Shown piece by piece: positions 3,512 through 10,599 of a stretch of 22,356 bases of DNA. A program made the translations under genes and the position numbers. Source of the DNA: a virus. Below the pieces are notes generated by a model. It was not told the origin of the DNA, ran no database searches, and saw only the letters and a program-made list of their open reading frames with translations. Every line of letters starts with the position of its first letter. The stretch's first letter is position 1. The stretch lies in IMG/VR virus record IMGVR_UViG_3300025128_000382, positions 1 through 22,356 of that record; one strand, written 5' to 3'.

Positions 3512-3530
3512 GTGTTTGATTCATAGGGAC

Positions 3531-3582
3531 ACACCGCCCTTTCACGGCGGCAACAGGGGTTCGAATCCCCTTGGGGACGCCA
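3531..3582 (+). other. attP core: 3' part of a tRNA-Glu(TTC) gene
   Basis: The sequence folds as the anticodon arm, T arm and 3' acceptor strand of tRNA-Glu. The anticodon stem is CCGCC 3534-3538 with GGCGG 3546-3550, and the loop CTTTCAC holds anticodon TTC at 3541-3543. The T stem is AGGGG 3555-3559 with CCCCT 3567-3571 and loop TTCGAAT. TGGGGAC 3572-3578 is followed by discriminator G and an encoded CCA 3580-3582. Upstream there is no D arm and no GTCCCC acceptor strand, so it is not a complete tRNA gene. Such a 3' fragment restores the host tRNA after integration and marks the crossover site. Confidence 0.88.
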
Positions 3583-3598
3583 CTTTCCGACATCGGCT

Positions 3599-3620
3599 TG
3601 TGCTAAAACCGTGCTAGAAC
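3599..3620 (+). repeat. TGTGCTAAAACC direct repeat copy 2 plus imperfect copy 3
   Basis: The exact copy spans 3599-3610, followed head to tail by GTGCTAGAAC at 3611-3620. They lie between the attP core and the integrase start. Tandem copies on one side and a single copy on the other are usual for tyrosine-integrase arm sites; integrase binding could also repress the integrase promoter. Confidence 0.55.
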
Positions 3621-3636
3621 TGAACAGGAGAAGCAC

Positions 3637-4575
3637 ATGGCACGACCGATTGGGGCGCCTAAGACGTACTGGCGCGGAGGCGTACAGTGGATCCGGTGGA
3701 GTGAGCCGGGCAAGGGTCAGCAGCGCAAACGCTTGACCGATGCCGAGCCGGACTGCATCGACACACCGTACTTGTGTCAGCACATCGTCACATACCTGGC
3801 ATGGCATGAGGAGGAATACCCGGCGCATTATCCGCGAGTGGAATCCATCATCCGTGTTCATCTCGCCCCTGCCTTCGGCAACCTGCAACTAAACAAGATC
3901 ACTCCCGAACTGGTCGCTAAGTACAAGAAGCAGCGACGGCAGCGGGGCGCCAGACCTGGCACGATCAACAAGGAACTGCGCACGCTGAATGCGGTACTGA
4001 ACCACGCTGTCACCTGGGACGCGCTTCAGAAGAATCCTATCGCTAAGAAGGTAAAACCCGCTAAAGATCCAGACGCGCAACCAAACCGTTTTTATAAGGA
4101 GAAGCAACTGCAAAAGTTGTACGCGCAGAACACCCGTTGGACAGACGTATGGAAGTTCATGGCAAACACGGGGCTGCGGTTGCATGAGATGCGGAACCTT
4201 AAACCGGAGCATGTGGGGGACAATGCGTTGTACGTCATCAGTACACCGGAGTCCCCGAACAAGACAACATCCTGGCGCCTGGTCCCTCTTTCAGATAACG
4301 CACAGGACGCACTGAGTCGGCTTCTGCTGCGCGATCACCTTTGCCCCAGGGTCACAGACAAGTCCATGTCCAGGGCGTTCAAGCGGGAGGCTAAGAGGGC
4401 AGGGATACCAGGGTCGCTGCACTGGCTACGTCACACATATTGCAGCCATCAGGTAATGAGCGGGACACCGCTCCCAAAGGTCCAGGCACTAGCCGGACAC
4501 TCGTCCTTCAAGACGACGCTTCATTACGTGCATCTCACGCCGGGCTATCTCGCTACGGGTGTTATCAATATCTGA
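3637..4575 (+). CDS. int: tyrosine-type site-specific integrase
   Basis: The 312-residue protein starts at ATG 3637 behind AGGAG, eight bases upstream. Residues about 1-35 look like a short AP2-like arm-binding region, 55-135 a SAM-like core-binding domain, and 150-312 the catalytic domain. The catalytic set is visible: R181 (TGLRLHEMR), H262-x-x-R265 (LHWLRHTYC), H288 (LAGHSS) and nucleophile Y297 (TTLHYVHL). It would recombine the adjacent tRNA-Glu core with the host tRNA gene. It is slightly shorter than many phage integrases, but nothing essential is missing. Its 3' end overlaps a convergent gene by 87 bases. Confidence 0.95.
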   Translation: MARPIGAPKTYWRGGVQWIRWSEPGKGQQRKRLTDAEPDCIDTPYLCQHIVTYLAWHEEEYPAHYPRVESIIRVHLAPAFGNLQLNKITPELVAKYKKQRRQRGARPGTINKELRTLNAVLNHAVTWDALQKNPIAKKVKPAKDPDAQPNRFYKEKQLQKLYAQNTRWTDVWKFMANTGLRLHEMRNLKPEHVGDNALYVISTPESPNKTTSWRLVPLSDNAQDALSRLLLRDHLCPRVTDKSMSRAFKREAKRAGIPGSLHWLRHTYCSHQVMSGTPLPKVQALAGHSSFKTTLHYVHLTPGYLATGVINI

Positions 4576-7635: not shown

Positions 7636-7954
7636 GTCGCGCCTCCAGGTATCGAAGATCGATAACGTAGTTGAAGACGTTGGTCTTCGCGTCCAACCCG
7701 TACATCCCACGCACCATGTCGAAGAAACGAATCATGTCGTCCGAGACAGCATCACGACCCATCGATTCGGGATCATCGGTAAGGAATTCACCCATCCGAC
7801 TAACCACCCGGTCGAGGTGTCGATCCTTGTACTCCTTGCGTGACTCGGGGTTGTTGCCGAACATGAGTGCGAACACACCGTGCGTGTCACACAGGTGATC
7901 CAGTTCGGATTCCATACCGTCGTCGAAGTTCATCAACCAATCGCGTGGATCCAT
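7622..7954 (-). CDS. small acidic protein of unknown function
   Basis: The 110-residue protein starts at the ATG at 7954 behind GAGGGGG. It is acidic in its N-terminal half (FDDGMESELDHLCD) and predicted to be largely helical (HLDRVVSRMGEFLTDDPE, RFFDMVRGMYGL). I recognise no motif. The start shares one base with the upstream stop (TAATG), so translation is coupled. Small acidic proteins in phage early operons often modify host enzymes or counter defence, but nothing here shows this. Confidence 0.65.
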   Translation of the reverse strand: MDPRDWLMNFDDGMESELDHLCDTHGVFALMFGNNPESRKEYKDRHLDRVVSRMGEFLTDDPESMGRDAVSDDMIRFFDMVRGMYGLDAKTNVFNYVIDLRYLEARHGHR

Positions 7955-8280
7955 TAGATAACCCCCTCAAGATGAGTGAGGAACTTGCGCAGTTCTTTGA
8001 TCTCATCGCGCAGGTCTTCGAACAACGCCATCCGTGCATCCGAATCTTTGGATGTGAGTTGGAAGTGTTCGCACATTTCGACAATGGTCATCGCACCACC
8101 TTCGATGTTGTTGACGGCAGCATCGCCAGGTGCGAGGTCGCGCCAATCACGGAACACCATCCCCTTCTCGGTGTCGTGTCCGACCATTGCGCGTTGGTAA
8201 GGAAAGATGGAGTTTGCTACCCAACCATCAAGATACTCCGCTGCGTGTATCGGTACTGCCTCCGGTAAAACTCTATTCAT
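7954..8280 (-). CDS. first gene of leftward early operon, unknown function
   Basis: The ATG at 8280 lies seven bases after AGGAGA; this start gives 108 residues and avoids a longer frame that would run through the promoter. The protein begins MNRVLPEAVPIHAAEYLDGW and ends with a coiled-coil-like helix (ALFEDLRDEIKELRKFLTHL). The centre includes GDAAVNNIEGGAMTIVEMCE. No family is recognised. As the first gene after the inferred operator-controlled promoter at 8323-8342, it would be made first after induction or infection. Confidence 0.65.
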   Translation of the reverse strand: MNRVLPEAVPIHAAEYLDGWVANSIFPYQRAMVGHDTEKGMVFRDWRDLAPGDAAVNNIEGGAMTIVEMCEHFQLTSKDSDARMALFEDLRDEIKELRKFLTHLEGVI

Positions 8281-8322: not shown

Positions 8323-8342
8323 AGTATACCACAACAGTAGTA
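8323..8342 (-). promoter_or_regulatory. leftward early promoter with overlapping operator
   Basis: Read on the minus strand, TACTAC-TGTT-GTGGTA (8342-8327) is a copy of the operator motif, and its final TA is the start of the -10 element TATACT (8328-8323). TGG immediately before gives an extended -10 (TGnTATACT). No good -35 is visible (GTATTG at 17-base spacing). Predicted transcription starts near 8316, about 35 bases ahead of the first gene. Repressor bound here would block the recombination operon. Confidence 0.65.
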
Positions 8343-8357
8343 AACCAATACGACAGA

Positions 8358-8375
8358 GATTCTATTAATAGAATC
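8358..8375. promoter_or_regulatory. 18-bp perfect palindrome
   Basis: GATTCTATTAATAGAATC is perfectly self-complementary. It lies between the leftward promoter and the repressor gene end and does not match the GTGGTA operator. It may be a binding site for another dimeric regulator or an upstream element of the leftward promoter. Confidence 0.5.
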
Positions 8376-8382
8376 AATGTGT

Positions 8383-8422
8383 TACGACCCCCTGGAAGAA
8401 GCTAATTTTCCAGGGAGTCGTA
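8383..8422 (-). terminator. strong hairpin after the repressor gene, possible terminator
   Basis: Arms 8383-8397 and 8408-8422 pair over 15 positions with one mismatch (C8389 with A8416), with a ten-base loop. It begins 12 bases beyond the repressor stop. There is no run of U after it in the leftward direction (the sequence continues toward the palindrome), so it may be a weak terminator or an mRNA-stabilising end. Confidence 0.5.
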
Positions 8423-8433
8423 GTTACACGGTG

Positions 8434-9063
8434 TTAAAACTTAGTTTGGCGGGTAACAACAACACCGCATAGCGTGGCGTTGCCGTTGATCGGTTGAAGT
8501 TGCGGGGTCCAGATAGGGTTGACCGCTTTCAGATAGCGACGATCACCTTCGATAACCAACTGCTTGAACGTCGCAGCGTCGTCATCGTCAAGGCGCACAA
8601 CAACATAGTCGCCATTGTTGGCTTCACGATCTGGATCAACGATGATCGTGTCGCCCTCATTGAATGTCGGTTCCATACTGACGCCCTGCACGGTTAGTGC
8701 GTACATGCGGGGACTGTCCTCTTGTTTTATTGTTGCGTATGGAATCCACCTTTCGGCATCACCTGCTGCATACGGATCTTCGACTTCGGTCCACGCTCCT
8801 GCCTGGACCCAAGAGATGACGGGTATGTTCATCAAGCGATATCGATCGTCCTCTGTTGCGTTCGCTTCTCCTTCGCCAGTCGCTAACCAGACGGGCGATA
8901 CTCCTAAACATCGTGCAAGTGACATGGTGAATTGTGATGCTTCAGCATTGCGACGCTCAATGGCGGACACTGCGCTCTGGCTTACACCTGCGCACTGGGC
9001 TAGTTCTACTTGTCCCATTCCTACCATCTTGCGTGCCTCTTTTAATCTATCTCCAAGACTCAT
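8434..9063 (-). CDS. CI/LexA-like phage repressor (HTH plus S24 peptidase)
   Basis: I choose the ATG at 9063 (209 residues), nine bases after GGAG; an ATG at 9072 is only one base after the same GGAG. Residues 17-38 (GQVELAQCAGVSQSAVSAIERR) form the HTH. Self-cleavage is likely at A88-G89 (WVQAGAW), with catalytic S129 (GVSMEP) and K167 (ATFKQL), all as expected for the RecA-responsive S24 family. It should maintain lysogeny by binding the TACCAC-N4-GTGGTA operators and be destroyed during the SOS response. An unusual feature is that an unrelated gene precedes it in the same operon. The repressor-operator pairing is inferred. Confidence 0.92.
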   Translation of the reverse strand: MSLGDRLKEARKMVGMGQVELAQCAGVSQSAVSAIERRNAEASQFTMSLARCLGVSPVWLATGEGEANATEDDRYRLMNIPVISWVQAGAWTEVEDPYAAGDAERWIPYATIKQEDSPRMYALTVQGVSMEPTFNEGDTIIVDPDREANNGDYVVVRLDDDDAATFKQLVIEGDRRYLKAVNPIWTPQLQPINGNATLCGVVVTRQTKF

Positions 9064-9121
9064 TACTTTCATCTCCACATTTTTTGAGCCAGGTTGGGTC
9101 ACTGGCACAGCATAATTTTTT

Positions 9122-9517
9122 TTAGGGGTGATGTTCTGAATACCAAGATGGGCATCCACAACTCCACCCGCGAATGTCTTTACGATCTGCTCCACTCGTT
9201 TCGTGGTTGTCCATGTGATTCGCGGGAATCGAGTCGTCGCCAAACCTTGACCACAGATTTTTTGCTTGGTCCGTGGTCATGCCACCGCCAATGCCACATT
9301 CTTTTCCCCACTCGGTGAGTCCACCTTGGGGAGACAGCAGGTTCCACATGGGTGGAAGTTTCATATATCGCCAACTTCCTGAATCGGTGTTGCGGTCCCC
9401 GAATGCGCTCCGATATTCATCCGGGAGAAATTCCTTAAGACCATTCGTCTGCCTGACTTTTCTCATGCGCTGTTGGACATTCATCAACGCCCAGAGTTGT
9501 TCTGCAACTATTTTCAT
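9122..9517 (-). CDS. unknown protein encoded ahead of the repressor
   Basis: ATG 9517 follows AAGGGG by six bases; a GTG at 9523 overlaps that site and is less likely. The 131-residue product begins with a helical basic part (MKIVAEQLWALMNVQQRMRK) and is rich in W, G and D later (PPMWNLLSPQGGLTEWGKE, then NLWSRFGDD). No family is recognised. The stop (TAA 9124-9122) leads into a run of eight A residues, and the repressor starts 58 bases further on. It shares the inferred repressor promoter, so it may be expressed in the lysogen. The C-terminal end looks less protein-like than the rest. Confidence 0.55.
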   Translation of the reverse strand: MKIVAEQLWALMNVQQRMRKVRQTNGLKEFLPDEYRSAFGDRNTDSGSWRYMKLPPMWNLLSPQGGLTEWGKECGIGGGMTTDQAKNLWSRFGDDSIPANHMDNHETSGADRKDIRGWSCGCPSWYSEHHP

Positions 9518-9553
9518 TTTCACCCCTTAAAACCTAGTTGATATTGTCCCTCA

Positions 9554-9583
9554 ATTCTACCGCAATCGTGGTAGTAAGTGGTA
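9554..9583 (-). promoter_or_regulatory. repressor-operon promoter with operator
   Basis: On the minus strand TACCAC-GATT-GCGGTA (9573-9558) is an operator copy whose last TA begins the -10 candidate TAGAAT (9559-9554). A further half-site GTGGTA lies at 9578-9583, one helical turn away on the plus strand. No convincing -35 is seen. Predicted start near 9547 gives a leader of about 30 bases with AAGGGG. Autoregulation of the repressor operon is inferred. Confidence 0.55.
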
Positions 9584-9592
9584 GAAATAAGG

Positions 9593-9608
9593 TAGTACAG
9601 GGGTGGTA
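9593..9608. promoter_or_regulatory. weaker operator copy between the divergent promoters
   Basis: TAGTAC-AGGG-GTGGTA has one perfect half-site (GTGGTA 9603-9608) and one degenerate half (TAGTAC), with the same 6-4-6 spacing. It lies between the two better operators, as a middle operator would. Confidence 0.4.
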
Positions 9609-9615
9609 ATTTAAG

Positions 9616-9645
9616 TTGATAAATACCACGATAGTGGTATATATT
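9616..9645 (+). promoter_or_regulatory. rightward early promoter with operator in its spacer
   Basis: The -35 TTGATA (9616-9621) is followed 16 bases later by TATATA (9638-9643), or 18 bases later by TATATT (9640-9645). The operator TACCAC-GATA-GTGGTA (9624-9639) fills the spacer and supplies an extended -10 (TGGTATA). Predicted transcription begins at about 9650-9652, at or within three bases of the ATG at 9653. Confidence 0.75.
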
Positions 9646-9652
9646 CCCGCCC

Positions 9653-9847
9653 ATGAAAGCAATCGAGAAAGCGGTACGGGTAGCGGGGGGGCAGTCCGCC
9701 CTGGCTCGGATGATAGGGGTGCGTCAGTCGAACGTGTGGAACTGGTTGAACCGGGATGCGAAGGGTGTCCCGCCACATCACGTGCTGTCCATCGAGAAGG
9801 CAACGGGCATCAGTCGTTTCGAACTGCGACCGGACATATTCAAATGA
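9653..9847 (+). CDS. cro: YdaS/Cro-like HTH regulator, apparently leaderless
   Basis: The 64-residue protein has one helix-turn-helix: GGQSALARMIGVRQSNVWNW (residues 12-31), with the C-terminal VLSIEKATGISRFELRPDIF typical of the YdaS/Cro group. It is divergent from the repressor, with three operator copies between them, so it is the natural Cro counterpart. Upstream of the ATG at 9653 there is only CCCGCCC, with no ribosome-binding site, and the predicted transcript starts at the ATG, so the mRNA is probably leaderless. Its stop overlaps the replication gene start (ATGA). Confidence 0.85.
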   Translation: MKAIEKAVRVAGGQSALARMIGVRQSNVWNWLNRDAKGVPPHHVLSIEKATGISRFELRPDIFK

Positions 9848-10599
9848 GCGTCGAAGCCATTGGGTATGCAGTGAAAGCGGACGGGTTGGCTGCGACCGAC
9901 AAACTCGTCCTGATCCTGATCGCTAACTGTTCCAACGCAGACACAGGTCTGTGTGTCCCGAGTCAGAGATACCTGGCGGAGCGCAGCGGACTCACCAGGG
10001 AGACAGTGAACCGTGTCGTCAAGAGATTGGAGGATGCGGGACACCTGAGAGTGACCCATCAGTTCCATGACGCAGGTGGTAAGAGATCAAACCATTACTA
10101 CATAGGGGGGTATGTGACACAGGATCACATAGGTGGTGACGCAGGATCACAACCCCATGTGACGCAGGATCACATGAAAGAAACAGAATTAAATAAACAG
10201 AATACTAAGAGGGGGGGCGCACGCGCCCAACGACTCTCTGAAGATTGGGACTTACCAGACGAGTGGGCTACGTGGGCGAGGGAAGAACGACCTGATCTGG
10301 ATCCCAAGAGCGTAGCAGCATCGTTCAAAGATTACTGGATCAGCCTGGCAGGATCCCGCGCAAGCAAGCGTGACTGGTTTGCAGTGTGGCGGAACTGGAT
10401 CCGCAAGGAAGCGCAGCCAGGAGATCGAAAGTTGAAGTCCGCATCTATCCCGTCATGGGCTGACCTACCACGGGACGATACCAAACTCGCAGACCATGCT
10501 CGATGGCATCGACTGCCTGACCCGCACCGTGGTGAATCCTTTGTTCAGTACAGGATGCGACTGACTGCTGCTATCCGTGAACGATCCCGAGCAGCGTGA
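9844..10599 (+). CDS. replication initiator, O-like, with HTH and DnaT-like C-terminal domain
   Basis: I start at ATG 9844, overlapping the cro stop by four bases; longer frames read through cro. In the 251-residue product, residues about 15-75 form a winged helix (HTH_36) with DKLVLILIANCSNADTGLC, then YLAERSGLTRETVNRVVKRL. Residues about 135-190 (WATWAREERPDLDP, KDYWISLAGSRASKRDWFAV, WRNWIRK) resemble the DnaT-type C-terminal domain found in phage initiators that load host helicase. The linker (residues about 90-118) is encoded by iteron-like repeats. It should bind the origin and recruit the helicase; a separate helicase or loader is not seen in this window. Confidence 0.82.
   Translation: MSVEAIGYAVKADGLAATDKLVLILIANCSNADTGLCVPSQRYLAERSGLTRETVNRVVKRLEDAGHLRVTHQFHDAGGKRSNHYYIGGYVTQDHIGGDAGSQPHVTQDHMKETELNKQNTKRGGARAQRLSEDWDLPDEWATWAREERPDLDPKSVAASFKDYWISLAGSRASKRDWFAVWRNWIRKEAQPGDRKLKSASIPSWADLPRDDTKLADHARWHRLPDPHRGESFVQYRMRLTAAIRERSRAA
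10114..10210 (+). other. putative replication origin: three iterons and an A+T-rich tract
   Basis: The 16-bp sequence GTGACRCAGGATCACA occurs at 10114-10129, 10136-10151 and 10159-10174 (22 and 23 bases apart). Each copy has GTGA and TCAC ends as an inverted repeat. The tract 10175-10210 that follows is strongly A+T-rich. All of this lies inside the initiator gene, between its two domains, as in lambda ori within O. A degenerate match (TGACGCAGG) is at 10068-10076. Confidence 0.7.

Follow-up and report, generated by a model that had tools for sequence, protein, structure and literature searches.

Our analysis showed that three copies of one palindrome, TACCAC-N4-GTGGTA, lie around the repressor gene of a temperate phage, and that they are very probably the operators of the phage's own CI/Cro immunity switch, where the repressor would exclude RNA polymerase at PR, PL and PRM. 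The DNA analysed is a virus record of this phage (called the window below, meaning the whole stretch at its full length of 22,356 bp), and the group to which it belongs is known here only from uncultivated contigs.

The probable operator motif and its promoters

The control region comprises the following features of the window, several of them shared with related contigs (L numbers).

7954–8280, minus strand: first gene of the left operon under PL; its homologue in L134 lies directly downstream of the PL operator of that contig
8327–8342, minus strand: OL-like operator on PL; same position in L134 and L135
8434–9063, minus strand: cI-type repressor, 209 aa, with HTH and Peptidase_S24 domains; VQAG, Ser129 and Lys167 aligned to lambda CI
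9122–9523, minus strand: accessory ORF, 133 aa, lying between cI and PRM; it is listed with a GTG start, and in-frame ATGs follow
9558–9573, minus strand: OR3-like operator on PRM, one mismatch; same position in L005, L134 and L135
9593–9608, plus strand: weak middle site, OR2-like, of which only the GTGGTA half (9603–9608) is good
9616–9645, plus strand: PR promoter, read either as TTGATA, 18 bp, TATATT or as TTGATA, 16 bp, TATATA with an extended -10
9624–9639, plus strand: OR1-like operator on the cro promoter PR; conserved in L005, L134 and L135
9653–9847, plus strand: cro-type regulator, 64 aa, of the YdaS / P22_Cro family

With at most one mismatch allowed, the window contains three copies of the motif and no others, and they begin at 8327, 9558 and 9624, exactly where the original prediction had placed them. 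Dinucleotide shuffles contained 0.05 such sites on average, and 0 of 100 reached three. The site at 8327–8342 reads TACCACAACAGTAGTA (TACTACTGTTGTGGTA on the minus strand) and that at 9558–9573 reads TACCGCAATCGTGGTA, each with one mismatch, while the site at 9624–9639, TACCACGATAGTGGTA, has none, its arms forming a perfect palindrome. All three fall inside the two non-coding stretches flanking the repressor gene. The motif itself was picked post hoc from the window; a weight matrix trained on sites of other phages only, with the window's sites left out, placed the same three at ranks 1, 2 and 3 of the whole window (scores 21.7, 18.5 and 15.7). Rank 4, at 10123, scored 12.1, and the best score of simulated genomes averaged 11.0. 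We rejected 10123 (three mismatches) as an extra operator, and also 9342 and 20581 (two mismatches each), all with chance-level scores and inside genes.

As originally described, the terminal TA of the operator is also the first TA of the -10 at all three window sites, and the extended -10 (TGn) claimed for two of them is present. PL has the -10 TATACT at 8328–8323 on the minus strand, with the extension; PRM, on the same strand, has TAGAAT overlapping the operator's terminal TA, and no TGn. At PR, TATATA on the plus strand starts with the operator's TA and a hexamer closer to consensus, TATATT, lies two bases further on, with TTGATA 18 bp upstream of it. Matches to the -35 element are poor at PRM and PL (2–3 of 6). 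When we oriented by promoter the 11 sites of four lineages, which are homologous and thus not fully independent, the operator's terminal TA started a -10-like hexamer in every case. The hexamer had the form TA-N3-T at 10 of the 11, compared with 14% of TA hexamers in the window, the sole exception at the sixth base being the window's own PR (TATATA). A TGn extension was likewise present at 10 of the 11, and it is the GTGGTA arm itself that supplies it.

It had been proposed that one repressor blocks three early promoters. One repressor and three promoters still stand, but only PR (9624) and PL (8327) are early; the site at 9558 belongs to PRM, the promoter of the repressor gene itself, and would therefore mean autoregulation. 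Conservation in relatives, a lambda-type repressor and a match to the lambda geometry together strongly support the reading that a single repressor acts at the three promoters by covering the spacer and the -10.

Relatives, repressor and Cro

Three further lineages, with repressors 61–76% identical to that of the window, came from searches of viral contigs that used the repressor and Cro as queries. A search of these related phages for the 16-bp motif, as had been suggested, located it in all three at the same promoters. In L005/L004 (repressor 76%) the PR copy of the motif matches perfectly and the PRM copy has two mismatches, the contig ending before PL. In L134 (71%) the PR and PL copies are perfect and the one at PRM has a single mismatch, three sites where 0.01 are expected; this contig also surfaced independently in a DNA pattern scan, as L090, among the matches listed. 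In L135/L167 (61%) the motifs at PR, PRM and PL are degraded. Alignment showed that operator positions were kept while the flanks diverged, and that the motif drifts as the repressor does. This comparative evidence suggests that the three sites of the window are functional operators.

The repressor has an N-terminal HTH and a C-terminal S24 domain (Pfam HTH_3 and Peptidase_S24, the latter at 2e-26), and its best sequence match among solved structures in the PDB is full-length lambda CI (3bdn, 1e-14). The VQAG cleavage site and the catalytic Ser and Lys motifs, G.SM and TFK, align with those of lambda CI, and the recognition helix SQSAVSA aligns with lambda GQSGVGA. In the lambda complex, the Gln and Ser of this helix recognise positions 2 and 4 in half-sites of the form TATCAC/TACCAC, and the TACCAC half-site of the window agrees with what such Gln/Ser recognition would predict. 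Several repressors with a QQ helix have TACAAx-N4-xTTGTA sites at the same place in related loci, in the manner of 434, and QQ helices are mostly paired with ACAA-type sites. A strict code leading from a QS helix to TACCAC was rejected, as L133 and L246 also have QS and carry different palindromes.

Cro matches Pfam YdaS_toxin (PF15943) with 74.2 bits against a curated cut-off of 30, and its gene, divergent from cI, opens the rightward operon and is followed by an O-like gene. The cro ATG lies 9 nt after the -10 in the window and 7–9 nt after it in all four lineages, leaving no room for a ribosome-binding site, which suggests that cro mRNA is probably leaderless, or nearly so. The coordinates of this region are as follows.

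Window, 9638–9653
L005, 916–930
L134, 2416–2429
L135, 2865–2878

Since Cro is conserved across all motif-bearing relatives, the motif could instead be mainly the site of this YdaS-type protein, with the S24 repressor binding elsewhere or only weakly here. Lambda Cro shares the operators of CI. Overlap of Cro and CI sites is also known from the E. coli cryptic prophage CP-933P, where the footprints of YdaS and of the CI analogue PaaR2 overlap over PRM and PR and both proteins repress PL (PMC8630535). At the same time, the motif decays as the repressor diverges, and a clade of three contigs, L006–L008, separates the two proteins. Their Cro, 57–62% identical to that of the window, has the identical recognition helix VRQSNVWNW, and yet the motif is absent from them and no repressor gene is adjacent. 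In L007 the cro control region borders immediately on the left operon's first gene and no repressor gene intervenes; upstream of cro on the short contigs L006 and L008, too, no repressor was detected. A different palindrome, around CACAAGTGTG, is found in this clade at the cro promoter and at the facing left promoter; loss of lysogeny control, or a repressor encoded elsewhere, is possible there. A motif that is missing where the same Cro helix persists beside no repressor gene is tied to the repressor, and from the association in four lineages only we infer that the repressor reads it, with Cro quite possibly sharing it. A mainly Cro-specific site is improbable.

The repeat might also be a promoter feature, the extended -10 TGGTA, with the palindrome incidental, given that GTGGTA contains TGn-TA and that the extension is so common among the 11 sites. 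This is very improbable. The left arm, TACCAC, is conserved in the spacer, at some distance upstream of the -10, a position for which we know of no promoter role; perfect palindromes recur in diverged flanks; and the PRM site of the window keeps its palindrome without a TGn. Chance similarity, which the post hoc choice of the motif might favour, has a negligible probability, as the matrix built from other phages puts these three sites at the top, the shuffles never reach three and the independent relatives already refute it.

The candidate middle operator and known switches

The half-sites of the right-hand region start at 9568, 9578, 9603 and 9634, in steps of 10, 25 and 31 bp, and so do not form the chain about one turn apart that had been read into them. 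Among the extra half-sites only 9603–9608 is conserved: in the alignment, a (G/T)TGGTA half-site ends 15 bp before OR1 in the window, L005 and L134 (31 bp centre to centre), and we regard it as a candidate OR2. Counted as adjacent operators, the right region has two that are strong and a weak half-site between them, and the left region has one strong site. With only one good operator at PL and a weak middle OR site, it is uncertain whether binding to adjacent sites is cooperative as in lambda. PL and PR are about 1.2 kb apart in both the window and L134. A switch that manages with essentially a single operator at each promoter, through sites embedded in the promoters and long-range contact between PL and PR and not through adjacent cooperative sites, in a group where the L006–L008 clade appears to have lost the repressor gene beside cro and has different operators at both promoters, is an unlikely combination.

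Extra half-sites were seen at the N4 distance from an operator in two places. At PRM of the window, a direct one at 9578–9583 stands exactly N4 upstream of the operator (GTGGTA-GTAA-GTGGTA), and at PL of L134, at about 3702–3717, an everted one stands exactly N4 upstream (GTGGTA-TTCC-TACCAC).

Comparison with lambda shows a shared plan. Both have a CI of the S24/LexA family encoded divergently from cro, operators within PR, PRM and PL, a QSxVxA recognition helix and the residues for CI self-cleavage; lambda OL1 contains the half-site TACCAC, and the lambda OR3/PRM operator ends GTGATA (GTGATA-GATT) over the -10 TAGATT, which is the same TA overlap as in the window. At the same time, the -10 elements of lambda PR and PL are GATAAT and GATACT, with the TA offset by two bases, and the lambda operator is 17 bp long compared with 16 bp (N4) here. 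Lambda spaces three sites about 24 bp apart, while here there is one strong site per promoter and a weak middle one at 31-bp centre spacing. Cro is of the YdaS/P22 type here, an extra ORF lies between PRM and cI, and it is cro that looks leaderless, not cI as in lambda. In view of the -10 overlaps at lambda OR3/PRM, PR and PL, a binding site embedded in the promoter is the classic arrangement.

CP-933P also uses YdaS as Cro, and its palindromes overlap PRM, PR and PL, two of them, at PRM and PR, being good and others having a single good half; its repeats, however, are of 18 bp with a different half-site, GTTTAGTAA, a toxin-antitoxin operon is under the control of PaaR2, and it is paaR2 that is leaderless there (PMC8630535). 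The 209-residue repressor shares its family (HTH_3 plus S24) with 434-type repressors, whose operators are ACAA-N6-TTGT in contrast to the QS helix and TACCAC half-sites found here. Phage CBW1004C-Prop1 (MZ188970) has a repressor 37% identical to that of the window, a divergent cro, an ERF gene in the left operon and, flanking the repressor gene on either side, 16-bp N4 palindromes; its operator is a different one, TATGGG-N4-CCCATA, and its right-hand sites are 24 bp apart as in lambda.

The proposed switch and its setting

The operons that the switch would govern, and the rest of the window, fit a temperate phage. Leftward, the operon holds SSB-like, YqaJ and ERF genes; 3' of the O/DnaD-like gene lie terminase, portal and structural genes, the portal being 38–42% identical to portals of Pelagibacter, Alteromonas and Vibrio phages. 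Two more features belong here.

9853–10599, plus strand: O/DnaD-like replication protein, encoded after cro on the PR transcript
3512–4575: tRNA-Glu and integrase

The tRNA-Glu gene (3512–3582, 71 nt, anticodon ttc) lies directly upstream of the integrase gene and is likely an attachment site, or a host-derived 3' part of a tRNA. Three iterons, GTGAC(G/A)CAGGATCAC, spaced by 22 and 23 bp, lie inside the replication-protein gene at 10112–10175 and probably constitute the origin of replication, as in lambda O; their spacing is identical in three phages (the window, L005 at 1518–1577 and L134 at 1809–1868). Compared with phage records by Megablast, the whole window gave no match, and in a scan of bacterial genomes for the repressor, patterns matched, no relative was confirmed and the host was not found.

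PRM is predicted to drive the accessory ORF together with the repressor gene. The ORF between PRM and cI varies in size, from 133 aa in the window to about 151–156 aa in L134 (2505–2975) and about 45 aa in L005 (about 660–800); the C-terminal ends are similar (P-x-W-(W/Y)...EH), and such an ORF is present in three of the four lineages and absent in L135. Those of the window and L134 had no Pfam match.

In the switch that we propose, a dimer of the S24-type CI would bind TACCAC-N4-GTGGTA, an operator that spans the promoter spacer and reaches two bases into the -10, and once bound would keep RNA polymerase out. Repressor at PR would silence cro together with the replication gene, and at PL the left operon with its SSB-like, YqaJ and ERF genes, while at PRM it would limit the repressor's own synthesis. 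The YdaS-type Cro would probably act on overlapping sites and favour lytic growth, while RecA-stimulated self-cleavage of CI, suggested by the conserved cleavage residues, would release the promoters. An S24 repressor, a divergent Cro and the same operator in PR, PRM and PL bear out the idea of a lambda-like circuit with the binding site built into the promoter.

These results provide a set of operators, derived from sequence and tested by comparison, for a temperate phage group known here from uncultivated contigs. They extend the lambda/434 repressor family by one repressor-operator pair, a QS helix with a TACCAC half-site, and allow lineages with the repressor gene to be compared in evolution with lineages that have none. 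The general picture of such switches is unchanged: this would be a classic switch of the lambda kind with an operator sequence of its own.
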